Shown piece after piece: positions 13,237-39,625 of a stretch of 64,000 nt of DNA. Under the pieces are notes generated by a model. It did no database searches, had not been told where the DNA came from, and saw only the letters and a list, made by a program, of their open reading frames with translations. Each line of letters starts with the position of its first letter. Within the stretch, counting starts at the first letter, position 1. The translations under genes were made by a program, and so were the position numbers. The DNA is from Hoeflea marina (lineage in GTDB: Bacteria > Pseudomonadota > Alphaproteobacteria > Rhizobiales > Rhizobiaceae). The stretch is from contig NZ_QGTR01000001.1 in assembly GCF_003182275.1 (NCBI RefSeq), positions 410,130 through 474,129 of the forward strand, read 5' to 3'.

Positions 13237-14745
13237 TCAGCTCGTCTTTCGAAGCGATCGAAGAACTTGCCAGCCCAAGATAATGGCGAGGATCGCCAGC
13301 AGGCTGCCGCTGATCGGGCGCGTCGCGAAGACTGAAATATCTCCTCCATTGGCAAGCAGGCCATTGCGAAAATTGGTTTCGATGATCGGTCCAAGCACCA
13401 ATCCGATGACGATCGGCGGCATCGGAAAGCGGAAGGCGAGCAGCAGGAAGCCGAGGATGCCCATCACCACCGCGAGAATGACGTCGAACGAGCTGCTGTT
13501 GACCGCATAAACCCCGGTGATGCAGAGGATCGCCACGATCGGCGTCAGGATCGGATACGGGATCGCCAGGATTTTGGGCAGGACGCGGCGCGCTGAAAGC
13601 CCGATGACGGTGATCAGGATCGCCGACAACAGCAGCACGCCCAGGATGACAACGAAGAGATCGGTGTTCTGGATGATGAAGAACGGCCCCGGATCGATAC
13701 CCTGGATCAGCAGCGCTCCCACCAGCACGGCCGTCACCGTGTCGCCGGGTATGCCGAGTGTGAGAAGCGGCACCAGCGCTCCGCCGGTGACCGCATTGTT
13801 GGACACCTCGGTGGCGATCAGGTGGCGGGTGTCCTGTTCGTGTTCGGCGGCCGCGTCATCACCGCCCGCGGCGGCCCGCCGGCCCTTGCCGACCATGCCA
13901 TAGGCGATCCAGGATGCGATGGTCGGTCCGGTGCCCGGCAGGATGCCGATGAAGGTGCCGACGGCGGCGCTCTGGATGACCACCCACCAGTTGCGCAGGA
14001 AAACCGGGACGAGACCGGCGACCGGAAAGCTCACCTGGGCAACGAGCGGCCTGTTGCTGGTATTGGTGTGGATCTGCGACAGGATCTCGGCGATGGCAAA
14101 AAAGGCGATGAGAGCCGGGATCAGCGGGATGCCCGCCTGCATGGCCGGAAAGCCGAAGGCAAAGCGCGTGGTGCCGTCGACCTGGTCGATGCCGACCGTG
14201 CTCAGCAGAATGCCGAAGGACGCGGCGATCATGCCCTTGATCATCGATCCGCCGGAGACCGCGGCGACGCACATCAGGCCGAACAGGCCGAGCGTGAAAT
14301 ATTCCACGGAAGTGAATTTCAGCGCGAAGGTCGAAAGCGCAGGGGCGAAGAACAGCAGGACGACCAGGGAGAGCAATCCGCCAAGCGATGACCCGACGGT
14401 GGACAATCCGATCGCGTAATCGGCCATTCCGCGCTGGGCCAGCCGATAGCCGGGCAGCGCCGTCGCCGCATTGCCGGGCGAGCCGGGCGTGTTGATAAGG
14501 ATCGCGGGGATGGACCCTGCATAATAGCCGGAGGCATAGATCCCCAGCAGCAGTGCCATGGCGGAATTGAAATCGACGCCGAAGGTGAGCGGTGTTGCAA
14601 TCGCAACGCCGGTGGTGGCGGTCAGGCCGGGCGAGGCGCCGAAGACGAAGCCGGCGATGACTCCGGCAAGGCACCAAAGCAGAATATGCGGTTCGAACAG
14701 TGTGGCGGCAGCAGCGCCCAGCGTGTCAAGCGAGATCAGATCCAT
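13237..14745 (-). CDS. tctA: Tripartite tricarboxylate transporter large permease, TctA family
   Basis: Large membrane subunit of a tripartite tricarboxylate transporter (TTT), which carries a carboxylate with an extracytoplasmic binding protein. The 502-residue product is hydrophobic with about 10-12 helices and the TctA hallmarks GVIAGFVFGASPGLTATTG and INTPGSPGNAATALPGY near the N-terminus, and LPGTGPTIASWIAYG in mid-protein. Its start overlaps the end of tctB by 10 bases. The substrate is unknown; the shared intergenic region with the HutC-like gene hints at an imidazole- or betaine-related carboxylate. Confidence 0.93.
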   Translation of the reverse strand: MDLISLDTLGAAAATLFEPHILLWCLAGVIAGFVFGASPGLTATTGVAIATPLTFGVDFNSAMALLLGIYASGYYAGSIPAILINTPGSPGNAATALPGYRLAQRGMADYAIGLSTVGSSLGGLLSLVVLLFFAPALSTFALKFTSVEYFTLGLFGLMCVAAVSGGSMIKGMIAASFGILLSTVGIDQVDGTTRFAFGFPAMQAGIPLIPALIAFFAIAEILSQIHTNTSNRPLVAQVSFPVAGLVPVFLRNWWVVIQSAAVGTFIGILPGTGPTIASWIAYGMVGKGRRAAAGGDDAAAEHEQDTRHLIATEVSNNAVTGGALVPLLTLGIPGDTVTAVLVGALLIQGIDPGPFFIIQNTDLFVVILGVLLLSAILITVIGLSARRVLPKILAIPYPILTPIVAILCITGVYAVNSSSFDVILAVVMGILGFLLLAFRFPMPPIVIGLVLGPIIETNFRNGLLANGGDISVFATRPISGSLLAILAIILGWQVLRSLRKTS

Positions 14746-15173
14746 GTCGGCACCAGAACGATGAAACCATAGCGGAAGATCATGAAGATGACGGCGGCAC
14801 AGGCAATCGGCATGATGGCCAGCATCAGGGGCCTGCGTTCACCCAGAAGCGCCATGCTGACCAGCATGAAAAGCCAGACCCCGAAGCGAAAATCCACGTA
14901 TCGGAAGGTCAGCGCGTAGACAAAGAGGAGTGCCACAAATGCCATGGCCTGGGGGCGCAACACCGGCGCCAGCGTCTCGCCGAGCAGGCGCGGCGACGGC
15001 CGCAGGATAAGAATGAGCGCGCCGAGCGCGATCACCACACCCACTGCAAACGGCAGGCTGCGTGTGGTCACCGTGGTGCTGCTGGATGGCAGGATACGAA
15101 GCTCGGAAGCGAACCACAACGTGGCCATTGCAAAGAGCAACAGCACGCCGCCCATGAACCGATCAGCGCGCAT
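14736..15173 (-). CDS. tctB: Tripartite tricarboxylate transporter small permease, TctB family
   Basis: Small membrane subunit of the TTT system, 145 residues with four hydrophobic segments (about 6-24, 38-56, 75-105 and 118-140 with breaks) and little sequence conservation, as is usual for TctB. The position between the binding protein and TctA makes the call. ATG 15173 (MRADRFMGG) starts just before helix 1; the upstream start at 15212 adds polar residues. The stop lies inside tctA. Confidence 0.85.
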   Translation of the reverse strand: MRADRFMGGVLLLFAMATLWFASELRILPSSSTTVTTRSLPFAVGVVIALGALILILRPSPRLLGETLAPVLRPQAMAFVALLFVYALTFRYVDFRFGVWLFMLVSMALLGERRPLMLAIMPIACAAVIFMIFRYGFIVLVPTWI

Positions 15174-15292
15174 GGCTGATTCTCCTGAAGGCTGGGCGCC
15201 GAACGGCACCAATGGTCTGACTGGCCGAATTGCCGCCGAAACGTCGGCCGCGAAAGGCGCCGGGGTCTGCTCCGGCGCCCGAGTGCTGCGCG

Positions 15293-16252
15293 CTACTTGG
15301 CGAGGCCGAGATCGTTCAGGATGCGCTTGTTCTGTTCCGTCGAGGCGGCGATCACCTTGCCGAAACCGTCGGCATCGAGGAAGGCATCCGTGTAGCTGTA
15401 TTTCGCATAAAGGGATTTCAGTTCGTCGGAGACTGCAATTTCCTTCAGCGCCGCGTCGAGGCTGGCCAGGACATCGTCCGGCGTGCCCTTTCTGGCGACC
15501 AGGCCGAACCAGACACTGGCGTTAAAATCAAAGCCCTGGTCCTTGAAGGTGGGAGCGTCGGGCAGATAGGAAACCTGCTGGTCCGCCGCCACGCCGATCA
15601 CGCGGATCTGACCGGCCTTGGCAAGGCTTGCGTAGACCGGAGCGCCGACGAAGGAAAAGTCGACTTCTCCCGACAGGGCCTTGGTGACGGCGCCCTTGCC
15701 GCCGTTGCCGCTGATATGGGTGAGCTTGGCGCCCTGGCTGGCGGCAAAATCGGACATGCTGACATGCTGGCTCGAGCCGGGACCGGGCGTGGCGAAGGTG
15801 GCTCCGCCATCCTTTGCCTTGGCAATGATGTCCTCGATGGATTTCAGCGGGCTGCCGGCAGCCACCGCAACCGCAATCGGCGTTTCCACGAGTTGGGCAA
15901 GCGCGACGAAATCATCCGTTTCGTAGCCCGCATCCGCCATGATCGGGCGGGCCGTCAGTGCGCCGGTCGACGCGACGAGAAGCGTATAGCCGTCCGCGGG
16001 AGCCCGTGCGGCCTCGGCCGTCCCCACGCTGCCGCCGGCACCGGCGGTATTGCGCACCACAAATGGGACGCCGAATTTCTTCTGCAAGAGCTGGGCGATC
16101 ACACGCGCGGTTCCGTCGATCGCGTCTCCAGCACCGAAGGGCACTATGATCTGCACCGGCTTTTCCGGATATTGTGCGTGGGCGGTGGCGGGAGCGAGCG
16201 CCAGCGCTACAATCGCTGCCAGTGCGAACCGTGTCTTCGTGAGCCAAACCAT
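15293..16252 (-). CDS. tctC: Tripartite tricarboxylate transporter substrate-binding protein, TctC/Bug family
   Basis: Periplasmic solute receptor of 319 residues. The signal peptide (about 1-26, ending ATAHAQ) is followed by the family opening YPEKPVQIIVPFGAGDAIDG and NTAGAGGSVGTAEAARAPADGYTL. The C-terminal lobe includes YLPDAPTFKDQG. Bug-type receptors bind di- and tricarboxylates or aromatic acids; the ligand here cannot be read. It is first in a tctC-B-A operon whose predicted promoter overlaps a HutC-type operator, so it is probably controlled by the divergent regulator. Confidence 0.93.
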   Translation of the reverse strand: MVWLTKTRFALAAIVALALAPATAHAQYPEKPVQIIVPFGAGDAIDGTARVIAQLLQKKFGVPFVVRNTAGAGGSVGTAEAARAPADGYTLLVASTGALTARPIMADAGYETDDFVALAQLVETPIAVAVAAGSPLKSIEDIIAKAKDGGATFATPGPGSSQHVSMSDFAASQGAKLTHISGNGGKGAVTKALSGEVDFSFVGAPVYASLAKAGQIRVIGVAADQQVSYLPDAPTFKDQGFDFNASVWFGLVARKGTPDDVLASLDAALKEIAVSDELKSLYAKYSYTDAFLDADGFGKVIAASTEQNKRILNDLGLAK

Positions 16253-16386
16253 GGTATGTTCCTTGTTCTCTGGAGTCCAAATGCCGAACGGGAGGCTGTT
16301 GCGGCGTTGCGACCGGGAGCTTCCGACTTTCCGAACGGACCTCGTCGTCGGTAACGACCACGGAGATGCGCCGGGCAGGGGCTTTG

Positions 16387-16415
16387 CTTGTTTTTATCGT
16401 TGGCGGCCGTATAGT
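16387..16415 (+). promoter_or_regulatory. Candidate promoter of the HutC-like gene
   Basis: CTTGTT (16387-16392) and TATAGT (16410-16415) are separated by 17 bases, about 40 bases before the ATG at 16456. The palindromic operator begins three bases downstream of the -10 element, consistent with autorepression. Inferred by eye. Confidence 0.45.
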
Positions 16416-16417
16416 GC

Positions 16418-16427
16418 AGTATATACA
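16418..16427. promoter_or_regulatory. HutC/GntR-type operator in the tctC-regulator intergenic region
   Basis: AGTATATACA contains the perfect dyad GTATATAC (16419-16426), matching the HutC-subfamily consensus GT-N-TA-N-AC. It differs by one base from the operator before the lyase gene (17335-17344). It sits between two divergent candidate promoters and could control both. Confidence 0.6.
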
Positions 16428-16445
16428 ACTGAGGGAACGGGTCAA
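16418..16445 (-). promoter_or_regulatory. Candidate promoter of tctCBA overlapping the operator
   Basis: Read on the minus strand, TTGACC (plus 16440-16445) and TATACT (plus 16418-16423) are 16 bases apart. The -10 element lies within the GTATATAC dyad, so repressor binding would block it. The resulting leader to tctC would be roughly 155 bases. Confidence 0.45.
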
Positions 16446-16455
16446 ATCAGCTGTG

Positions 16456-17187
16456 ATGTTCAAAGCTCCGGTACCGCGCTATGCAGCGCTGAAGACATAT
16501 GTTTGCGAGCAGATCGAGAAGGGAAAGTGGCAACCCAACGATAAGATCCCCTCGGAAACCTCGCTGGCCGAAACCTTCGGAATCTCGCGCATGACGGCCA
16601 ATCGTGCCATCCGCGAACTGACGGACGAGGGCCGGCTGATCCGCATTGCCGGCGTCGGCACCTTTGTGTTGCCGCCAAAGGTGCGCGGCACCATTCTCGA
16701 GATCCGCAGCATATCGGAGGAGATAATCGCACGCGGGCATATCCACAGCAGCCGCCTGCTGACCATCGAAAAAATGGAGGCCTCCGCCTTCGTGGCCCGT
16801 TCGCTTGAACTTGAAGAGGGCGCCGAGATTTTTCACGCCGTCTTCGTGCATTTCGAAAACGACGAACCGGTGCAGTTGGAAAACCGCTTTGTCAATCCGG
16901 CCGCCGCCCCGGATTTCCTCAGCCTGGATTTCACCAATCGGACACCCAGCGACTATCTGTTGGGCCGCTTGCCGGTCACCGAAATCGAGCAGACGATCGA
17001 GGCGCGGCTTCCCAGCAAGCAGGAGGCGGCGCATCTGGCCATCGATCTTGCCGAACCGTGCCTGGTGCTGGAGCGGACGTCGCGGACGGGACAGATGGTC
17101 GTGACCCATGTTCGCCTGGTCCATCCCGGCAAGCGGATGACGCTCGGTGGCCGCAATTCCTTCGACAACACGCCGTCGATCGGCTGA
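16456..17187 (+). CDS. GntR-family repressor, HutC subfamily
   Basis: Transcriptional regulator of 243 residues. The N-terminal winged helix-turn-helix has the GntR signature PSETSLAETFGISRMTANRAIRELTDEG, and the C-terminal effector domain (about 90-240) is the UTRA/HutC type with ERTSRTGQMVVTHVRLVHPG near the end. HutC proteins sense urocanate in histidine utilisation; here the neighbours are not hutU/hutI/hutG, so the inducer may be a modified urocanate. ATG 16456 is chosen because the helix-turn-helix N-terminus (VPRYAALKTYV) follows directly. It is divergent from tctC and is probably autoregulated through the 16418 operator. Confidence 0.9.
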   Translation: MFKAPVPRYAALKTYVCEQIEKGKWQPNDKIPSETSLAETFGISRMTANRAIRELTDEGRLIRIAGVGTFVLPPKVRGTILEIRSISEEIIARGHIHSSRLLTIEKMEASAFVARSLELEEGAEIFHAVFVHFENDEPVQLENRFVNPAAAPDFLSLDFTNRTPSDYLLGRLPVTEIEQTIEARLPSKQEAAHLAIDLAEPCLVLERTSRTGQMVVTHVRLVHPGKRMTLGGRNSFDNTPSIG

Positions 17188-17310
17188 GCCTGCCTGCATT
17201 CGACCGCAAGGTTTCTCGGTCGGGAGGCGTGGCCGGGATGGCTTGCGCGGCGAGGGTCCGAACCATAGATAAGGCTGCCGCCTAAATTTCAGCCGATGCA
17301 GTTTTCTGCC

Positions 17311-17340
17311 TTGCACGTAAGCATTTTGCGTGGTTGTATA
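17311..17340 (+). promoter_or_regulatory. Candidate promoter of the lyase-transporter operon
   Basis: TTGCAC (17311-17316) and TGTATA (17335-17340) are spaced by 18 bases, about 57 bases before the lyase ATG. The -10 element is the left half of the TGTATATACA operator, so repressor and polymerase would compete. Confidence 0.5.
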
Positions 17341-17344
17341 TACA
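17335..17344. promoter_or_regulatory. HutC/GntR-type operator before the lyase gene
   Basis: TGTATATACA is a perfect 10-bp palindrome fitting GT-N-TA-N-AC. It lies 53 bases upstream of the lyase start, and its near-copy at 16418 precedes the regulator gene. Confidence 0.65.
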
Positions 17345-17396
17345 GGTACAGACATCAAAGAGCCTGCCTCGTTGATGTCCTTGAAAGGTCCACGCG

Positions 17397-18902
17397 ATGA
17401 CTTCGGACAGAGCCGTCACACTTGCACTCCGGGCGCCCACGGTCAGCGATATCGTGGCCGTGGCCCGCAATGGTGCGCGCCTGTCGATCGCTCCCGAGCT
17501 GATGACGGAAGTGGCCAGGGGGCGATCCGTCATCGACAAGTATATTGCCTCCGATGTCGCCGTCTATGGGCTGACAACCGGCCTCGGGGCCGGAGTGGAT
17601 ACACGGTTGGACGCAGCGGATCTGATCAGCTTTCAGCGGCGTGTGCCGCAGGCGCGATCAGTGGGCGTGGGGCCCGCCCTGTCAAGGGAAGAGACCCGCG
17701 CGGTCATGGCTGTGCGGGCCGCCGGCTTTGCCGCCGGCGGGTCCGGCGTTTCGCCGTCCGTCTTTGCCGCGCTGGTCGACGCCCTCAATGCGGATTTCGT
17801 TCCGGTCGTCCCGTCGTTGGGCTCGATCGGGGCGGCCGATCTTGCGCCGCTCGCCCATATTGCCGGCGCGCTGATGGGGGCTGGCGAGGTGGCGCTCGCT
17901 GGTGAGATATTGCCGGCGGCCGATGCTCTGGCAAAGGCCGGCCTTCGGCCGGTGGAGCTTGCTGCCCGCGATGGTCACGCCCTGGTGGTCGGCAATGCGC
18001 TGTCGACCGGGCTTGCCTGTCTGGCCCTCGACGATCTCGAACGGCTGATCGAATGGTCGCTTGCGGCAATAGCGCTGAATTTCGAAGCCTTCCGGGCCAA
18101 TGTCTCGGCCTTTGACGAGCGGGCGCTTTCGCGCCGTCCCGCCTTCGGACAGGTCGAGGCCGCAGCGCGCCTGCGGGCATTCTTGACCGGCAGCGCGCTC
18201 AACGATGAAGGCGCCGCGCGCCGTCTTCAGGATCCGCTGAGTTTTCGCTGCACGCCGCAGATATGGGGCGCGCTTCTGCATGCGGCGGACGAGGCCCGGC
18301 AGGCGACCGAAATCGAACTCGCCGGAGTGGGCGACAATCCGGTCATCCTGGTCGACGAAGGCCTCATTCTCGCCAACGGCAATTTCGACACCACCGCATT
18401 TGCGCTTTCCTTCGAGCGGCTAGGCCTGGCCATCGCTCATTGCGCCGCCGCGACCGCCCACCGCACGATGAAGATCATGTCGCCGGGCATTTCCGAACTG
18501 CCGCGCTTTCTCACCCCGCTCGGCGCCAGCCGCAACGGCTTTGCCACCGCGCAAAAGACGGTCTCGGCGCTCGAGGCGGAGATCCGCCACCTTGCCAATC
18601 CGGTGTCCTTTTCTCCCATTCCCGTGGCCGATGGGATCGAGGACCATGCCTCGCTTGCGCCAAGTGTCGTGGCAAAGACGGCCGCCATCATCGAGCGCTT
18701 CACCTATCTTGTCGCGATCGAGCTCCTTGCAGCGGCGCAGGCCGTGGATCTGCGCGGGGTCGAAGACAGGCTGGGAGCGGGCGCGTCTTTCGCCTACCGG
18801 CGGATACGCGACTGCGTATCGCCTCTTGCCGAAGACCGGGCGCTGGGTCCGGACTTTCAACTGATGGCCGATGTCATGCGCACTCATTCTCCTGGCGCCT
18901 GA
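17397..18902 (+). CDS. Histidine ammonia-lyase-family protein lacking the MIO triad (possible ergothionase-like lyase)
   Basis: A 501-residue protein of the aromatic amino acid lyase family. The fold motifs are present: the catalytic-tyrosine loop AVYGLTTGLGAG (Tyr57), FRANVSAFDERALSRRPAFGQ, DPLSFRCTPQIWGALL, GDNPVILV, GNFDTTAFAL and IPVADGIEDHASLAP. The segment that should read GASGDLAPLAH and cyclise to the MIO cofactor reads GSIGAADLAPLAH (about 142-154): one residue shorter and without the Ser-Gly. It is therefore unlikely to be a standard HutH. Ergothionase, which eliminates trimethylamine from ergothioneine, belongs to this fold and works without MIO as I recall, and the following genes encode a quaternary-ammonium-type ABC importer. 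The specific function is inference; automated tools would probably label it hutH. AAAGG precedes ATG 17397. Confidence 0.85.
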   Translation: MTSDRAVTLALRAPTVSDIVAVARNGARLSIAPELMTEVARGRSVIDKYIASDVAVYGLTTGLGAGVDTRLDAADLISFQRRVPQARSVGVGPALSREETRAVMAVRAAGFAAGGSGVSPSVFAALVDALNADFVPVVPSLGSIGAADLAPLAHIAGALMGAGEVALAGEILPAADALAKAGLRPVELAARDGHALVVGNALSTGLACLALDDLERLIEWSLAAIALNFEAFRANVSAFDERALSRRPAFGQVEAAARLRAFLTGSALNDEGAARRLQDPLSFRCTPQIWGALLHAADEARQATEIELAGVGDNPVILVDEGLILANGNFDTTAFALSFERLGLAIAHCAAATAHRTMKIMSPGISELPRFLTPLGASRNGFATAQKTVSALEAEIRHLANPVSFSPIPVADGIEDHASLAPSVVAKTAAIIERFTYLVAIELLAAAQAVDLRGVEDRLGAGASFAYRRIRDCVSPLAEDRALGPDFQLMADVMRTHSPGA

Positions 18903-18996
18903 GCAGGCTATTCCAACCATAAGAGTCAAAAAGACCGCAAACCGTGAATGACAGCAATCAAGACCCGCGACCGCGGCTCAACCCAGAGGGAATAAA

Positions 18997-19881
18997 ATGA
19001 AGCCTTCCATCCCGACATCCATTCTTGCCGCCGCCATCGCGCTCGCCGTTTCGTCGCCGGCCTCCGCCGATCCGATTAAGGTCGGCAGCAAGAATTTTAC
19101 CGAGCAGTATATTCTCGGCGAAATGTACGCCGCCCTTCTTGAAAACGCCGGCTTCGAGGTCGAGCGCAAGATCAATCTCGGCGGCACGCTGATCGCCCAT
19201 CAGGCGCTGGTCAACGGCGATATCGATCTTTATCCGGAATATACCGGCACCGCTCTTTCCGCGGTCGTGAAGGGCGACATCTCGCCGGACGCGCAGAAAG
19301 TCTATGAGACGGTCAAGGATTTCTACTCGAAGGAATTCAAGCTGACCTGGCTGAAGCCGACCGGCATCAACAATGGCTATGCCATGGTCGTGCGCAAGGA
19401 CACCGCCGATGCCGACGGCCTGAAGACCTTGTCGGACCTCTCCAAGGTCGCCGGCACCCTCGTCATGGGCGGCGGCCCGGAATTCCCAGACCGTGCCGAC
19501 GGCCTGCCGGGCCTGAAGAGTGTCTACGGCATCGAGTTCAAGGAGTTCAAGCAGTTCGCCAAGCTCGGCCTGCGCTATGACGCTCTCGATCAGAAGAGCA
19601 TCGATGTGGCCAATGGCTATGCCACCGACTGGCAGATCGGCGCCAAGGGTCTTGTCGCGCTCGAAGACGACAAGGGCCTGTTTCCCCCCTATTTCGTGGC
19701 GCCCGTGGTGCGTCAGCAGGTGCTCGACGCCAATCCGAAGGTCACCGAGGTTCTGGAATCCCTGGGCTCCCACCTCGACAATGGAACGATGCGCAAGCTG
19801 AATGCCCAGGTTGAGGTCGACCATCAGGAGCCCGAGGACGTCGCCAAGGCGTTTCTCAAGGAAATCGGCCTGATCAAGTAG
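18997..19881 (+). CDS. Glycine betaine/osmoprotectant-type ABC substrate-binding protein (OsmF/ProX-like)
   Basis: Periplasmic receptor of 294 residues with a signal peptide (about 1-24, ending SPASA). It opens with the OpuAC/OsmF hallmark KVGSKNFTEQYILGEMYAALLE and has DIDLYPEYTGTAL, typical of receptors for choline, betaine and related quaternary amines; ergothioneine receptors (EgtU) belong to this fold. The next components are separated from it by the cyclodeaminase and PhnD-like genes. Betaine-binding aromatic residues cannot be assigned without a model. Ligand inferred as a trimethylammonium compound. Confidence 0.9.
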   Translation: MKPSIPTSILAAAIALAVSSPASADPIKVGSKNFTEQYILGEMYAALLENAGFEVERKINLGGTLIAHQALVNGDIDLYPEYTGTALSAVVKGDISPDAQKVYETVKDFYSKEFKLTWLKPTGINNGYAMVVRKDTADADGLKTLSDLSKVAGTLVMGGGPEFPDRADGLPGLKSVYGIEFKEFKQFAKLGLRYDALDQKSIDVANGYATDWQIGAKGLVALEDDKGLFPPYFVAPVVRQQVLDANPKVTEVLESLGSHLDNGTMRKLNAQVEVDHQEPEDVAKAFLKEIGLIK

Positions 19882-19890
19882 GACTGAAAC

Positions 19891-19925
19891 GGCTTGCGGC
19901 GGCGCCTCTCGCCCTGCCGCAAGCC
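19891..19925 (+). terminator. Hairpin after the binding-protein gene
   Basis: A perfect 10-bp stem (GGCTTGCGGC at 19891-19900 and GCCGCAAGCC at 19916-19925) with an inner GGCG/CGCC pair, just after the binding-protein stop. No T tract. Hairpins here often protect the receptor part of an ABC operon mRNA or attenuate downstream expression. Confidence 0.5.
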
Positions 19926-19999
19926 TATGCCCGAGGCACCGCCCGACCCGGGTCGCGCGCTTCAAACACAATGCTGCCGGCAACACGTGGAGACATCAC

Positions 20000-21004
20000 A
20001 TGCAGGAAATCTGGATCGACTATCTCAATGGACCCGACGTTCATGCGCTGGCCCTGACCGACGCGGAAATTCTGTCCGCCGTTGAACAGGCGCTCGCTGA
20101 TCAGGGGCGCGGCGAGACGGTGATCGAACCGCGCGTGCATCTGGTGCCGGAAAGCTCCGACAAGGGGCATTTCAACGTGCTGCGCGGCTATGTCAAATCG
20201 CTGGGTTATGCCGGCGTGAAGGTGGTCGGCGACTTCGTCGACAATTACAAGGTCGACCTGCCCTCAGAACTGGCGGTGCTCAATCTCTTCGATCCGCACA
20301 CGGGCGTGCCCAAGGCGATTGTCGACGCCACGGCCATCACCGACATGCGCACCGGCGCCGTCACCGCGATAGGGGCAAAATATCTCGCCCGCAAGGACAG
20401 CAAGATACTGGGCCATATCGGCGCGCGCGGCACCTCCTACTGGAATGTCCGGCTGCTCGACCATCTGTTTGACTTCGAGGAAATTCGCGTGCACTCGCGC
20501 CGCCCGGAAAGCCGCAACGCCTTTGCCGAACGGCTCGAACGCGATCTCGGCAAGAAGATCGTCGTGACGGACAATTGGGAGGACTGCCTGAAGGGTGCCG
20601 ACATCCTGGTGGAGGCCAGCCGTCTGCCGGAACCGACGCCGCTGTTCAAGACCGAGTGGGTCAAGAAGGGCGCCTTCGTCGTTCCCTACGGCACGATGAG
20701 CGCGCTCGAATTCGACCTGACCGACATCATGAGCAAGGTTGTCGTCGACGACTGGGGTCAGTGCGGTCCCGGCCGGCCGTATGGCGCGCTTCGCCGCCAC
20801 GTCGATGAAGGCAAGGTGACCGCCGAAAACCTGCATGCCGAAATCGGCCAGATCGTCTGTGGCGCCAGGCCCGGTCGCGAAAACGACGAGGAATCGATCC
20901 TGTTCTGGCATCGCGGCCTCTCCACCACCGACGTTGCGCTGGGCGCGGCGATGGTCGACAAGGCTGCAAAGCTCGGCATCGGCCAGCGCCTTCGTTTCGC
21001 CTGA
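20000..21004 (+). CDS. Ornithine cyclodeaminase/mu-crystallin family protein
   Basis: A 334-residue cytosolic NAD(P)-binding protein. The N-terminal half carries the substrate-site pattern (VIEPRVHLVPESSDKGHFNVLRGYV) and IVDATAITDMRTGAVTAIGAKYL; the Rossmann segment is KILGHIGARGTSYWNVRLL. Members include ornithine cyclodeaminase, alanine dehydrogenase and ketimine reductases, so the reaction cannot be fixed from sequence. It lies inside the lyase/ABC operon, where it may reduce or deaminate an intermediate. The initiation region has GGAGACATCACATG. Confidence 0.9.
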   Translation: MQEIWIDYLNGPDVHALALTDAEILSAVEQALADQGRGETVIEPRVHLVPESSDKGHFNVLRGYVKSLGYAGVKVVGDFVDNYKVDLPSELAVLNLFDPHTGVPKAIVDATAITDMRTGAVTAIGAKYLARKDSKILGHIGARGTSYWNVRLLDHLFDFEEIRVHSRRPESRNAFAERLERDLGKKIVVTDNWEDCLKGADILVEASRLPEPTPLFKTEWVKKGAFVVPYGTMSALEFDLTDIMSKVVVDDWGQCGPGRPYGALRRHVDEGKVTAENLHAEIGQIVCGARPGRENDEESILFWHRGLSTTDVALGAAMVDKAAKLGIGQRLRFA

Positions 21005-21013
21005 GGCCGCGGA

Positions 21014-21823
21014 ATGACGCCTTCGCCGATCGCCAATGCGCGGATGTACACTGTCGGCCCCGAGGTTCAGGCCCTCTGGGCCGGGCTGTTCGACCATGTC
21101 TCCGACCTATCGGGCGTCCCTCTGGAAGTGATTGCCCATCCCGCGCCGGCGCCGCTGGCTGACCTCTGGGCAAGGCCCGACCTGGGTGCCGTCTTCATGT
21201 GCGGGTATCCGTTCTCGATCCTTCCCGTCGAACAGAGGCCGCGGCCGCTGGCGGCGCCGGTCTCGATCAGGGAGTGGTCAGGCGACGGCCCCTGTTATGC
21301 CAGCCATGTGGTGGTCAGAAAGGGCGAAGCCCCCGAGGCGAACGGGCTTGGCGATTTGCGGTGGGGATGGACGGTTCGCGATTCCCAGTCGGGATACAAC
21401 GCCCTGCGCGAATATCTGGCCGGCTTGCCCCTTATGAACCGGGCTGTCGCGACCGATGGACCCCATCTCAATCCGGACGGCATTGGCGCAGCGCTCACCG
21501 AAGGCCGGATCGATATCGGCGCCATCGACGCCTATGCGTTCCAGCTGATGCAGATGCATGATCCCAGGCGGGTGGAGGCGGTCGACATCATCGCGACCAC
21601 GAAACGAGCGCCCGCACCCATGCTTGTGGCAGGCCGCACTCAACCGCAGGACATGATTGCCGCTTTGAAAATTGCCCTGCTAGGCCTTCACCAAAAGCCT
21701 GAGGGCCTTGCCCGGCTTGCTGCGCTGGGCCTTTCCCGCTTCGCCGATCCGGACCTTGCCGCGGTGGACGAACTGCCGGCGCGCGCGGCCGGCGCCGCCG
21801 AAACCCTGGGGGACGCATGGTGA
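21014..21823 (+). CDS. PhnD-like substrate-binding-fold protein without signal peptide
   Basis: A 269-residue protein resembling the phosphonate/phosphite-type periplasmic binding domain (PhnD): ANARMYTVGPEVQALWAGLFDHV at the start, DLGAVFMCGYPFSIL, VRDSQSGYNALREYL and LTEGRIDIGAIDAYAFQLM. No hydrophobic leader is seen, so the product should remain in the cytosol, unusual for this fold. It starts 9 bases after the cyclodeaminase stop. It may be an enzyme or sensor that uses a binding-protein fold, or an importer part exported by another route. Confidence 0.75.
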   Translation: MTPSPIANARMYTVGPEVQALWAGLFDHVSDLSGVPLEVIAHPAPAPLADLWARPDLGAVFMCGYPFSILPVEQRPRPLAAPVSIREWSGDGPCYASHVVVRKGEAPEANGLGDLRWGWTVRDSQSGYNALREYLAGLPLMNRAVATDGPHLNPDGIGAALTEGRIDIGAIDAYAFQLMQMHDPRRVEAVDIIATTKRAPAPMLVAGRTQPQDMIAALKIALLGLHQKPEGLARLAALGLSRFADPDLAAVDELPARAAGAAETLGDAW

Positions 21824-21866
21824 CGCAACAAGCGACAAGGTCGCCGACACATCAGGGAGCAGGACG

Positions 21867-22496
21867 ATGAAGTGGGTTCCCAAACATCTTGATACCTTGC
21901 TGGAAGCGCTGCTTCAGCATCTCTATCTCGTCGTCACGTCCGTGGGCATCGCGCTGGTGATCTCGCTGGTGATCGGCATCGCCAGCGCCCGCCACCCGCG
22001 CAGCTTCGGCCTGATCATCATCATCACCGGCGTGCTGTTTGCCATTCCGAGCCTGGCGCTGTTTGCGCTTTTCATTCCGGTCATGGGGATCGGCACGGCG
22101 CCGGCGATCACCGGTCTTTCGCTCTATTCGCTCATGATCCTGATCCGCAATATCGGCCTGGGCTTCCAGTCCATTCCCGACGACGTGATGGAAGCGGCCC
22201 ATGGCATGGGCTATGGCCGGGTCCGGCGCATCTGGGAGGTGGAACTGCCGATTGCCATGCCGTTCATCGTCGGCGGCATCCGCATTGCCGTCGTCACGGT
22301 GATCGGGATCGCCACGGTCGCCGCCTATATCAATGCCGGCGGGCTGGGCACCATCATCTTCCAGGGCATCGATCAGCGCTTTCCGGAAAAGATCATTGCC
22401 GGCGGCCTGATGACCTCCGCGCTGGCCTTGTCCGCCGACTATCTGCTCTCCTCGGCCGAAAAATATCTGCGCCGCAGAAATGGGAGGCCGGCATGA
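21867..22496 (+). CDS. Osmoprotectant-type ABC transporter permease 1 (OpuCB/YehW-like)
   Basis: A 209-residue inner-membrane permease with about five or six helices. The cytoplasmic coupling loop reads PDDVMEAAHGMGYGRVRRIWEVELPIAMPFIVGG (only its EAA core matters: EAAHGMG, ELPIAMP). The C-terminal helix pair includes VAAYINAGGLGTII, a hallmark of betaine-class permeases. ATG 21867 has GGAGCAGGA upstream and begins before helix 1. Its stop overlaps the next permease start (ATGA). Confidence 0.92.
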   Translation: MKWVPKHLDTLLEALLQHLYLVVTSVGIALVISLVIGIASARHPRSFGLIIIITGVLFAIPSLALFALFIPVMGIGTAPAITGLSLYSLMILIRNIGLGFQSIPDDVMEAAHGMGYGRVRRIWEVELPIAMPFIVGGIRIAVVTVIGIATVAAYINAGGLGTIIFQGIDQRFPEKIIAGGLMTSALALSADYLLSSAEKYLRRRNGRPA

Positions 22497-23128
22497 TCGT
22501 TGTCGAAGCGTTCAACTGGATCCTCGCACATCAGACCGAGTTTTTCTCCGCGTTCAACCGCCATCTGGCGCTGTGCCTGATCTCGCTTGCGATTGCGTCG
22601 GCAATCGCCTTGCCGCTCGGCTTTTGGGTTGCCCGCTCGCAAAAGGCGTCTTTCGTTGCGATCAACATCGCCGGGTCGCTGCGCTCCATCCCCAGCCTGG
22701 CGATCCTGGCAGGGACGATGCCTTTTCTCGGCATTGGCCTGCTGCCGTCGGTGGTGGCGCTGGTGGTGCTGGCCGTGCCACCGCTTCTGCTCAACACGGT
22801 GGTCGGTATCCGCGAGATCGAGCCGTCCATCATCGACGCCGCCGATGGCATGGGCATGGGCCGGCGCGAGATCCTCTGGCAGGTCGAATTGCCGCTGGCC
22901 GTTCCCTCCATCATCGCCGGAATTCGCACGGGCGCGATCCAGGTGATCGGCGGAGCCGCACTTGCGTCCTTTATCGGCGGCGGCGGTCTCGGTGATTTCA
23001 TCAATGCCGGCATCGCCATCATGAACATGCCACGACTTGTCGTCGGCGCCCTGCCTATCGCTCTGCTCGCCATTTTCGCCGAAGTTTTCTTCGGTTGGCT
23101 GCAGCGCTGGCTCACCCAGAGACGCTGA
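22493..23128 (+). CDS. Osmoprotectant-type ABC transporter permease 2 (OpuCD/YehY-like)
   Basis: A 211-residue permease, partner of the previous one. EAA-loop elements: DAADGMGMG and ELPLAVPSIIAG; the conserved stretch GGAALASFIGGGGLGDFINAG follows. Starts on an ATGA overlap with permease 1, indicating coupled translation. Two different permeases plus one ATPase match the Yeh/Opu-type importers of quaternary amines. Confidence 0.93.
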   Translation: MIVVEAFNWILAHQTEFFSAFNRHLALCLISLAIASAIALPLGFWVARSQKASFVAINIAGSLRSIPSLAILAGTMPFLGIGLLPSVVALVVLAVPPLLLNTVVGIREIEPSIIDAADGMGMGRREILWQVELPLAVPSIIAGIRTGAIQVIGGAALASFIGGGGLGDFINAGIAIMNMPRLVVGALPIALLAIFAEVFFGWLQRWLTQRR

Positions 23129-23147
23129 TCCCGGAAGGTCACATTGG

Positions 23148-24095
23148 ATGATTAAGCTCGAGCATGTAACCAAGAATTACGAAGGCAGCGGCCGCCACGC
23201 CGTCGATGGCCTCGATCTCGACATCGAGAATGGCACCACGGTCGCGCTGATTGGCCCTTCCGGCTGCGGCAAGACGACGACGATGCGGATGATCAACCGG
23301 CTGGAGCAGCCAAGCGCCGGTCGCGTTCTCGTCAATGGCGAGGACATTTCCGGGATCGACCCGCGCGATCTTCGCCGCCGCATCGGATATGTGATTCAGC
23401 AGGTCGGTCTCTTCCCCCACATGACCATCGAACGCAATGTGGCGACCGTGCCGCGGCTGCTCGGCTGGGACAAGGCCAGGACCGGTCGCCGTATCGACGA
23501 ACTGCTCGATCTGGTGGGCCTGGATCCCGCCGTGATGCGCAAGCGCCTTCCGCACGAACTGTCGGGCGGCCAGCGTCAGCGTGTGGGTTTCGCCCGCGCC
23601 TTGGCCGCCGATCCCGAAATCATGCTGATGGACGAACCCTTCGGGGCGATCGACCCGATCACCCGTGTCAAGCTTCAGGACGAGTTCCGCCTGATCCTGA
23701 AAAAGGTGAGCAAGACCGTCGTCATGGTCACCCACGATCTCGACGAGGCGATCAAGATGGGCGACCGCATCGCCATCATGCGCGACGGAAGGCTTCTGCA
23801 ATATGATACGCCGCAGGCGATTCTCGCCAAACCGGCTGATGATTTCGTGCGCAGCTTTCTGGGCAAGGATCGCGCCATAAAGCGCCTGAGCCTGATTGAA
23901 GTTGAAAGCATGATGTCCCCCGCTCGAGAGAATCCGAAAGGCGCGACGGTCTATCCGGGGGACAGCCTTCATATTGCCCTGTCCACGATCATTGCGGACG
24001 ATCTGGAAGGTGTGGACGTGGTTACCGTCGATGGCCATCGGGTCGGGTATCTCTCCCGTGACGCCCTTTTCGCGGCCCATACTGCGGCAGGATAG
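23148..24095 (+). CDS. Osmoprotectant-type ABC transporter ATP-binding protein
   Basis: A 315-residue ATPase: Walker A GPSGCGKTT, Q loop VIQQVGLFPHMT, signature LSGGQRQRV, Walker B IMLMDEPFGAID and H-loop VTHDLDEA. The C-terminal 60 residues form a short CBS-like regulatory segment (GDSLHIALSTI, VDGHRVGYLSRDAL), as in OpuCA/ProV-type ATPases. ATG 23148 is preferred over an earlier in-frame start at 23037 that lies inside permease 2. Last gene of the predicted lyase-transporter operon. Confidence 0.93.
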   Translation: MIKLEHVTKNYEGSGRHAVDGLDLDIENGTTVALIGPSGCGKTTTMRMINRLEQPSAGRVLVNGEDISGIDPRDLRRRIGYVIQQVGLFPHMTIERNVATVPRLLGWDKARTGRRIDELLDLVGLDPAVMRKRLPHELSGGQRQRVGFARALAADPEIMLMDEPFGAIDPITRVKLQDEFRLILKKVSKTVVMVTHDLDEAIKMGDRIAIMRDGRLLQYDTPQAILAKPADDFVRSFLGKDRAIKRLSLIEVESMMSPARENPKGATVYPGDSLHIALSTIIADDLEGVDVVTVDGHRVGYLSRDALFAAHTAAG

Positions 24096-39474: not shown

Positions 39475-39625
39475 CGGCCGCCGATGGCTGGACATTGGGG
39501 CGAAATTGCTCAGGAATGGGTTCCCGCCGCGCTGCCCGCTATGGTATCGGGCAGTGCGAATGTTTACTCATGCCCCGTGATCCCGCTCCGTTCAGAGCGA
39601 CATGCCAGTGAAAGTCGACAGCCCC

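Follow-up and report, generated by a model that had tools for sequence, protein, structure and literature searches.

A 64,000-nt stretch of the Hoeflea marina contig NZ_QGTR01000001.1 (hereafter the window, to whose positions all unlabelled coordinates refer) contains, on its forward strand, genes for a HutC-type repressor, a lyase of the histidine ammonia-lyase (HAL) family, an ATP-binding cassette (ABC) importer of the quaternary-amine class and an enzyme of the ornithine cyclodeaminase (OCD)/mu-crystallin family. We propose, with a probability of roughly 55%, that this cluster feeds histidine catabolism as a side branch under HutC control, in which ergothioneine sulfonate is converted to urocanate by the lyase and the OCD enzyme. 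The genes are identified by family-level matches, the lyase has lost the triad that forms the 4-methylideneimidazole-5-one (MIO) group and is conserved together with the OCD and ABC genes, and the operator in front of it is common to the organism's own hut operon.

In the proposed scheme, the importer (18997–19881 and 21867–24095) would take in a betaine of trimethylhistidine, with ergothioneine sulfonate (2-sulfohercynine) as the most likely candidate, and the MIO-less lyase would eliminate trimethylamine from it to give 2-sulfourocanate. The OCD enzyme would then deliver a hydride to the imidazole C2, releasing sulfite and leaving urocanate, which the hut operon on another contig would carry on to glutamate. 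Urocanate, or its sulfo form, would lift repression at both promoters. If this is true, an oxidised form of the fungal and bacterial antioxidant ergothioneine would be tied to histidine catabolism through a common operator, the residue at HAL position 83 and the partner gene would serve to re-sort 'histidine ammonia-lyase' annotations within this clade, and rhizobia would have a possible source of trimethylamine and sulfite.

A first-pass annotation had read the locus as a candidate system that imports and degrades a trimethylammonium derivative of histidine. This is well supported by the ergothionase-like lyase, the co-conserved quaternary-amine ABC genes and the HutC-type operator, and the gene names given there (HutC-type regulator, lyase, receptor, permeases, ATPase, OCD homologue and TctABC) are borne out by TIGR02018 and Pfam matches.

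The lyase and its substrate

The closest match in the PDB to the lyase (17397–18902, forward strand; PF00221) is ergothionase, both by sequence and by fold. In the sequence search ergothionase chain 6s7j scored 272.6 bits, compared with 256.9 bits for 7tqr, the highest-scoring HAL chain, and 238 bits for HAL of Pseudomonas putida. An AlphaFold2 model with a predicted local distance difference test score (pLDDT) of 84.6 gave ergothionase as the first Foldseek match, with a template modelling (TM) score of 0.91, followed by HAL and tyrosine aminomutase at 0.88–0.89. In the alignment, the MIO triad is lost through a one-residue deletion, the loop reading GSIGA-ADL in the window lyase and SSIGE-GDI in ergothionase, as against GSVGASGDL in P. 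putida HAL; the earlier description of the lyase as MIO-less is therefore correct. In a 32-row tree the enzyme falls in a 13-row clade (support 100/100), which together with 6s7j and two divergent lyases makes up a 16-row group (99/97) apart from HAL, with long branches flagged by the tool.

Ergothionase itself has no MIO and yields trimethylamine and thiourocanic acid, according to excerpts of PMC13405746. The window lyase resembles the Treponema denticola enzyme (6s7j/6s7q) in its fold, in an MIO loop shorter by one residue, in the loss of HAL Asn195, and in the motifs QDPLSFRC, NF[DE], QKT and IEDHAS. By chemical reasoning, a trimethylammonium leaving group would depart without MIO activation. 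The product of the window lyase should be a urocanate. The two enzymes differ in that their identity is 32%, in that the conserved partner of the window lyase is the OCD enzyme rather than a urocanase paralogue, and in one pocket residue. At the position of HAL His83, ergothionase and HAL both have His, and in the alignment of the tree set this ergothionase-type pocket His is absent from the window lyase, which has Arg87 instead. A neighbourhood scan covered 63 loci, of which 47 (L004–L050), with lyases 57–70% identical to that of the window, are termed relatives here; Arg is found at this position in 46 of them.

We take HAL position 83 to be the equivalent of position 89 in tyrosine ammonia-lyase (TAL). 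The TAL substitution His89Phe shifts the preference from tyrosine to phenylalanine, indicating that such a residue selects the substrate ring (PMC9002059, in excerpts). Genes for a YeiH-type putative sulfate exporter lie beside 14 of the 47 relative clusters (84–100% identical to that of L022), with one more at 48% identity. Both the pocket Arg and these exporter genes would be compatible with a sulfonate substrate.

That the enzyme is instead an ordinary ergothionase, which converts ergothioneine to thiourocanate and trimethylamine while the OCD enzyme removes the sulfur by some unspecified means, is suggested by the identity of its closest solved relative. We nevertheless regard it as unlikely, given the Arg in place of His and the company kept by lyases in clusters that do look like ergothioneine clusters. 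There, a lyase (with His83 in L043 and L088) is paired with a urocanase paralogue, S-methyl thiohydantoin desulfurase (S-Me-THD), a hydantoinase and a carbamoylase. The L043 lyase, from Rhizobium setariae, belongs to the window clade at 57% identity and is the sole non-Arg enzyme among the relatives; it adjoins all four genes, the urocanase paralogue being 48% identical to the HutU of H. marina, and no OCD match was found beside it, in a sequence that stops 1.3 kb downstream of the lyase. This set of four genes is also found in R. rhizogenes (L088), next to a different lyase of the His type, and in R. laguerreae (L090), next to another lyase. We take these three clusters to be of the ergothioneine or S-methyl-ergothioneine type. 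A local ergothioneine route in H. marina was rejected; its genome has no S-Me-THD and a single urocanase.

The HutC regulator and its link to hut

The repressor, of the GntR/UTRA type (16456–17187, forward strand, with an alternative upstream start possible at 16366), scores 274.6 bits with TIGR02018, whose cut-off is 220. A perfect HutC operator, TGTATATACA (17335–17344), lies 52 bp 5' of the lyase start, and an imperfect one, AGTATATACA (16418–16427), with one mismatch, lies 28 bp 5' of the repressor gene and 165 bp from the divergent tctC start. The regulator gene is flanked by these two sites, in keeping with the single operator type described in the first pass. Scanning the window with TTGTATATACA and allowing up to two mismatches gave four strand matches at two places, compared with a mean of 0.57 in shuffled sequence, and four were reached in none of 100 shuffles.

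Excerpts of PMC12977541 give TGTA-N2-TACA as the HutC operator consensus and urocanate as the effector in Pseudomonas. The window cluster thus resembles the hut operon and the HutC regulon, as described in those excerpts, in having this operator at a promoter together with a HutC-type repressor; the difference is that here a betaine lyase cluster is controlled, rather than histidine ammonia-lyase and urocanase.

Within the 5.26-Mb H. marina genome, exact copies of TGTATATACA occur in two places, between hutF and hutI and before the window lyase, whereas the reversed control occurs nowhere. The hut operon, which lies on another contig with an ordinary HutH and the genome's one urocanase, has the order hutC-hutF on the reverse strand and hutI-hutH-hutG-hutU on the forward strand (hutF, hutI and hutG being named by eye from sequence), behind the same operator. 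The absence of hutU, hutI and hutG, remarked on earlier, is correct locally, in so far as the organism's own hutU, hutI and hutF gave no match in the window (hutG was not among the queries), and incorrect for the genome as a whole, in view of this operon. The notion of a pathway differing from hut is likewise set aside: the operator is common to both, and urocanate would most likely be delivered to hut.

Thirteen other genomes, chosen for holding the lyase, contain the TGTATATACA palindrome at 28 places, compared with 7 for the reversed control; 11 of these are at a hut operon (one each in G001–G011), 10 are at the lyase cluster and 7 are elsewhere, with none at hut in G012 and G013. The ten lyase-cluster copies are found in the seven genomes that have hutC in the cluster, three of them standing at a divergent second operon. 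Among the relatives, the exact palindrome is present in 26 of the 27 loci with a cluster hutC and in none of the 20 without; the exception, L014, has a copy with one mismatch. In G428, 0.7 kb separates the end of the cluster from the C-terminal end of a hutU gene whose last 120 residues, those on the contig, are 85.8% identical to the HutU of H. marina.

The window HutC is 41–44% identical to the cluster HutC proteins of the relatives and 32% identical to the HutC of its own hut operon. This repressor may respond to urocanate or to a substituted form of it.

The OCD enzyme and the PhnD-like protein

The OCD enzyme (20000–21004, forward strand; PF02423) has alanine dehydrogenase, 1omo, as its nearest solved chain; other solved relatives are pyrroline-2-carboxylate reductase and iminosuccinate reductase and, more weakly, cyclodeaminases. 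It is 71–90% identical in 11 aligned relatives and is the most conserved part of the cluster (83–90% across the relatives and 70–71% in Methylobacterium L042). We infer that it could act as a 2-sulfourocanate reductase.

This conservation bears on another proposal, that hercynine is the direct substrate, cleaved by the lyase into urocanate and trimethylamine, and that the OCD and PhnD-like proteins are accessory. The product would then be urocanate itself, in agreement with the operator common to hut, but both the strongly conserved OCD enzyme and the pocket Arg would be left without a role. A different MIO-less lyase of R. rhizogenes (L049, 554–2104), which stands at a second operator, has His83 and has no OCD gene in its operon, would moreover be a better fit to hercynine. 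We consider the proposal less likely still than an ordinary ergothionase.

In the sulfonate pathway that we favour, a further protein may take part. A gene missed in the first pass, 21014–21823 (forward strand; PF12974), lies between the OCD gene and the permeases and begins 9 bp after the OCD stop. An AlphaFold2 model of its product, with a pLDDT of 90.8, gave AioX, ArrX, PhnD and PtxB as top Foldseek matches, and the protein has no signal peptide. Its frame has no earlier start, and in an alignment of 38 such sequences (with starts chosen by script) the conserved part begins a few residues past the start codon; judged by eye, the protein should therefore be cytosolic. The same alignment has an invariant Cys63 and an invariant Ser124-x-Ser126-Gly127, which suggests that the protein is an oxyanion binder; that the ligand might be sulfite is a guess.

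Distribution of the cluster

Of the 47 relatives, 46 have an OCD gene, 45 a PhnD-like gene, 27 a hutC within the cluster and 26 an OpuAC receptor gene. The receptor, both permeases and the ATPase occur together in 26, so that the refuting condition set in the first pass, a lyase cluster unrelated to ABC genes in other genomes, is not borne out. The cluster is sporadic within its own genus, family and order, since no lyase was found at E 1e-120 in any of the 60 other genomes of closest kin (drawn from genus, family and order, 17 being of the same genus). In a class-wide sample, at least 27 of 385 genomes, H. marina included, have a lyase that passes E 1e-76, a lower bound in that at most four candidates were scored per genome. 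The 26 other lyases comprise 10 with the one-residue deletion, 3 with a GSVGY loop and 13 with a HAL-like triad (ASG, or ACG in one case). Three of the ten more distant deletion-type enzymes adjoin an OCD gene (64–70% identity), and nine of the ten have Arg at HAL position 83, with His in L096.

In 24 of the 47 relatives, the 6.5 kb upstream of the lyase include genes for a coenzyme A (CoA)-transferase, a short-chain dehydrogenase/reductase (SDR) and MaoC; four more have MaoC alone there. These genes raise the possibility that the lyase acts on a different aromatic betaine, such as a plant tryptophan or tyrosine betaine, and that Rhizobium oxidises the resulting aryl-acrylate by way of CoA esters. 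No match to the relatives' CoA-transferase is present in the window, however, the nearest in the H. marina genome being 40% identical and located elsewhere, and imidazole acrylates are indicated by the HutC-type regulator and its operator; we judge such a substrate quite improbable.

Two neighbourhoods differ in other ways. In L120 (7533–9969) the lyase adjoins an OCD gene, and 34 bp further along lies what appears by eye to be a glutaminase-like gene. L005 (4150–9697), which has neither a cluster hutC nor an OpuAC gene, carries, upstream of the lyase, genes for an RbsB-like ABC system of the sugar type and for an aldolase of the LacD/DeoC type, and several similar loci have a like ATPase match in that position.

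The receptor and importer

The receptor (18997–19881, forward strand; PF04069) belongs to the OpuAC, or ProX/OsmF, class and matches ProX, EgtUC and other chains. The determinants of EgtU specificity include Gly244 and Phe293, according to excerpts of PMC9732360. Neither has an equivalent in the window receptor, which has Phe in place of Gly244, aligned with AfProX Phe15, and Tyr in place of Phe293, aligned with AfProX Tyr63. The first of these motifs is kept in 26 of 26 relatives and the second in 25 of 26. Chain 8dp6, the Helicobacter pylori receptor that we take to be the one named EgtV, has Ser and Tyr at the two positions. Candidate aromatic-cage and carboxylate-contact residues of the class can be picked out in the window receptor, in part by alignment with AfProX and for the rest by motif only. 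The window receptor and permeases are separate proteins, whereas EgtUBC is a single protein. Membership of EgtU was rejected on the two determinants; the importer class named in the first pass, which includes EgtUV, thus stands at superfamily level and not at that of EgtU itself, and the ligand of the receptor cannot be read from its determinant residues.

Two permeases (21867–22496 and 22493–23128, both forward strand and PF00528) are choline/ProW-like and ProW-like respectively, each scoring under the curated cut-offs, and are followed by a ProV-type ATPase (23148–24095, forward strand; TIGR01186, 316.7 bits, slightly below the cut-off of 326.6). That these genes simply import glycine betaine or choline and adjoin an unrelated lyase, as the AfProX-like Phe and Tyr of the receptor might suggest, is very improbable, because the receptor and ABC genes are interleaved with the lyase and OCD genes in 26 of the 47 relatives (rearranged in Methylobacterium L042) and in G428 as well.

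Assessment of the proposed pathway

Several observations weigh against a HutC-controlled route from ergothioneine sulfonate to urocanate. The relatives are mostly Rhizobium, so that counts among them are not independent, and the 13 genomes of which all 13 have a urocanase were chosen for holding the lyase. Given the 32% identity between the two H. marina HutC proteins, their effectors may differ, and the receptor is AfProX-like at both EgtU determinants. No gene for handling sulfite or trimethylamine was recognised in the window cluster, enzymes of trimethylamine not having been searched for, and the only YeiH homologue in the genome lies outside the cluster. The CoA-transferase, SDR and MaoC genes of the relatives have no place in the scheme. 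Finally, seven of the ten more distant MIO-less lyases, all with Arg, have no OCD gene in the stretch fetched (some being short contigs), and the OCD-linked lyase L096/L125 has His at HAL position 83. Since Arg lyases without OCD are seen and OCD-linked L096 has His, the idea that Arg83 strictly marks OCD clusters was rejected beyond the close clade.

Relation to the published ergothioneine sulfonate route

An ergothioneine sulfonate route in Agrobacterium radiobacter reportedly comprises a lyase and a reductase, and A. radiobacter K84 is, we assume, R. rhizogenes. Three genomes labelled R. rhizogenes (L004, L045 and L049) carry orthologues of the lyase, OCD and PhnD-like genes, L045 without the receptor. 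They are the candidate point of likeness to the published pathway; the window cluster differs in having TctABC alongside and in having no CoA-transferase, SDR or MaoC genes. Each of these genomes has four or five PF00221 genes, any of which may be the one studied. The bacterial ergothioneine sulfonate catabolic pathway is cited for A. radiobacter as reference 43 in excerpts of PMC13405746 (Yan, Huang, Zhang 2022, ACS Catal 12:4825), and the window cluster is probably a relative of this route already in print.

In a literature search that left most subscription journals outside its scope, no bacterial pathway appeared in the titles of the ergothioneine sulfonate papers listed, urocanate-2-sulfonate and S-methyl thiohydantoin desulfurase gave no match, and ergothioneine together with ornithine cyclodeaminase matched only a review on cyanobacteria.

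Other MIO-less lyases

The divergent operon at the second TGTATATACA of L049 (554–5636) contains quaternary-amine ABC genes as well as the His83 lyase (554–2104) mentioned above, whose GSVGY loop is three residues shorter than that of HAL. This second type of lyase, a candidate hercynine lyase, is also present in L004, L006 and L050.

We tentatively suggest, as an idea less likely to be right than wrong, that HutC operators link a family of different MIO-less lyases for betaines, in which every enzyme handles one form of trimethylhistidine and every route leads to urocanate. Enzymes with Arg83 and an OCD partner would serve the 2-sulfonate. Those of the second type, with the GSVGY loop, His83, no partner enzyme and a quaternary-amine ABC system of their own, encoded divergently beside the first type in R. 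rhizogenes, would serve hercynine, and the cytosolic PhnD-fold protein would be a sulfite or sulfonate binder in the sulfonate branch. We know of no such use of the PhnD fold.

Other MIO-less lyases, which have a GSAGY loop, occur in L075 and L078–L081; in R. rhizogenes and R. laguerreae, those of L075 and L078 are about 4–8 kb away from hutH. In Shinella (L052–L055 and L057), lyases with a GSVGY loop closely follow genes for an ABC permease and an ATPase, and a HutC homologue (45% identity) is encoded about 4 kb away.

Neighbouring genes

Genes for TctA (13237–14745), TctB (14736–15212) and TctC (15293–16252), identified by Pfam matches, lie on the reverse strand, divergent from the repressor gene. 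The first-pass annotation counted this transporter as part of the region; the genes are real, at 13237–16252 outside the interval of 16252–24095 assigned to the system. Because TctABC is absent from all 47 relative clusters at E 1e-10, it was rejected as a member of the system and is kept here as a neighbour only.

Elsewhere in the window, a stretch at 39623–41457 matches ilvD (dihydroxy-acid dehydratase) of Haematobacter and Paracoccus plasmids at 81–83% identity, which among the ten matches listed is higher than for the other stretches.

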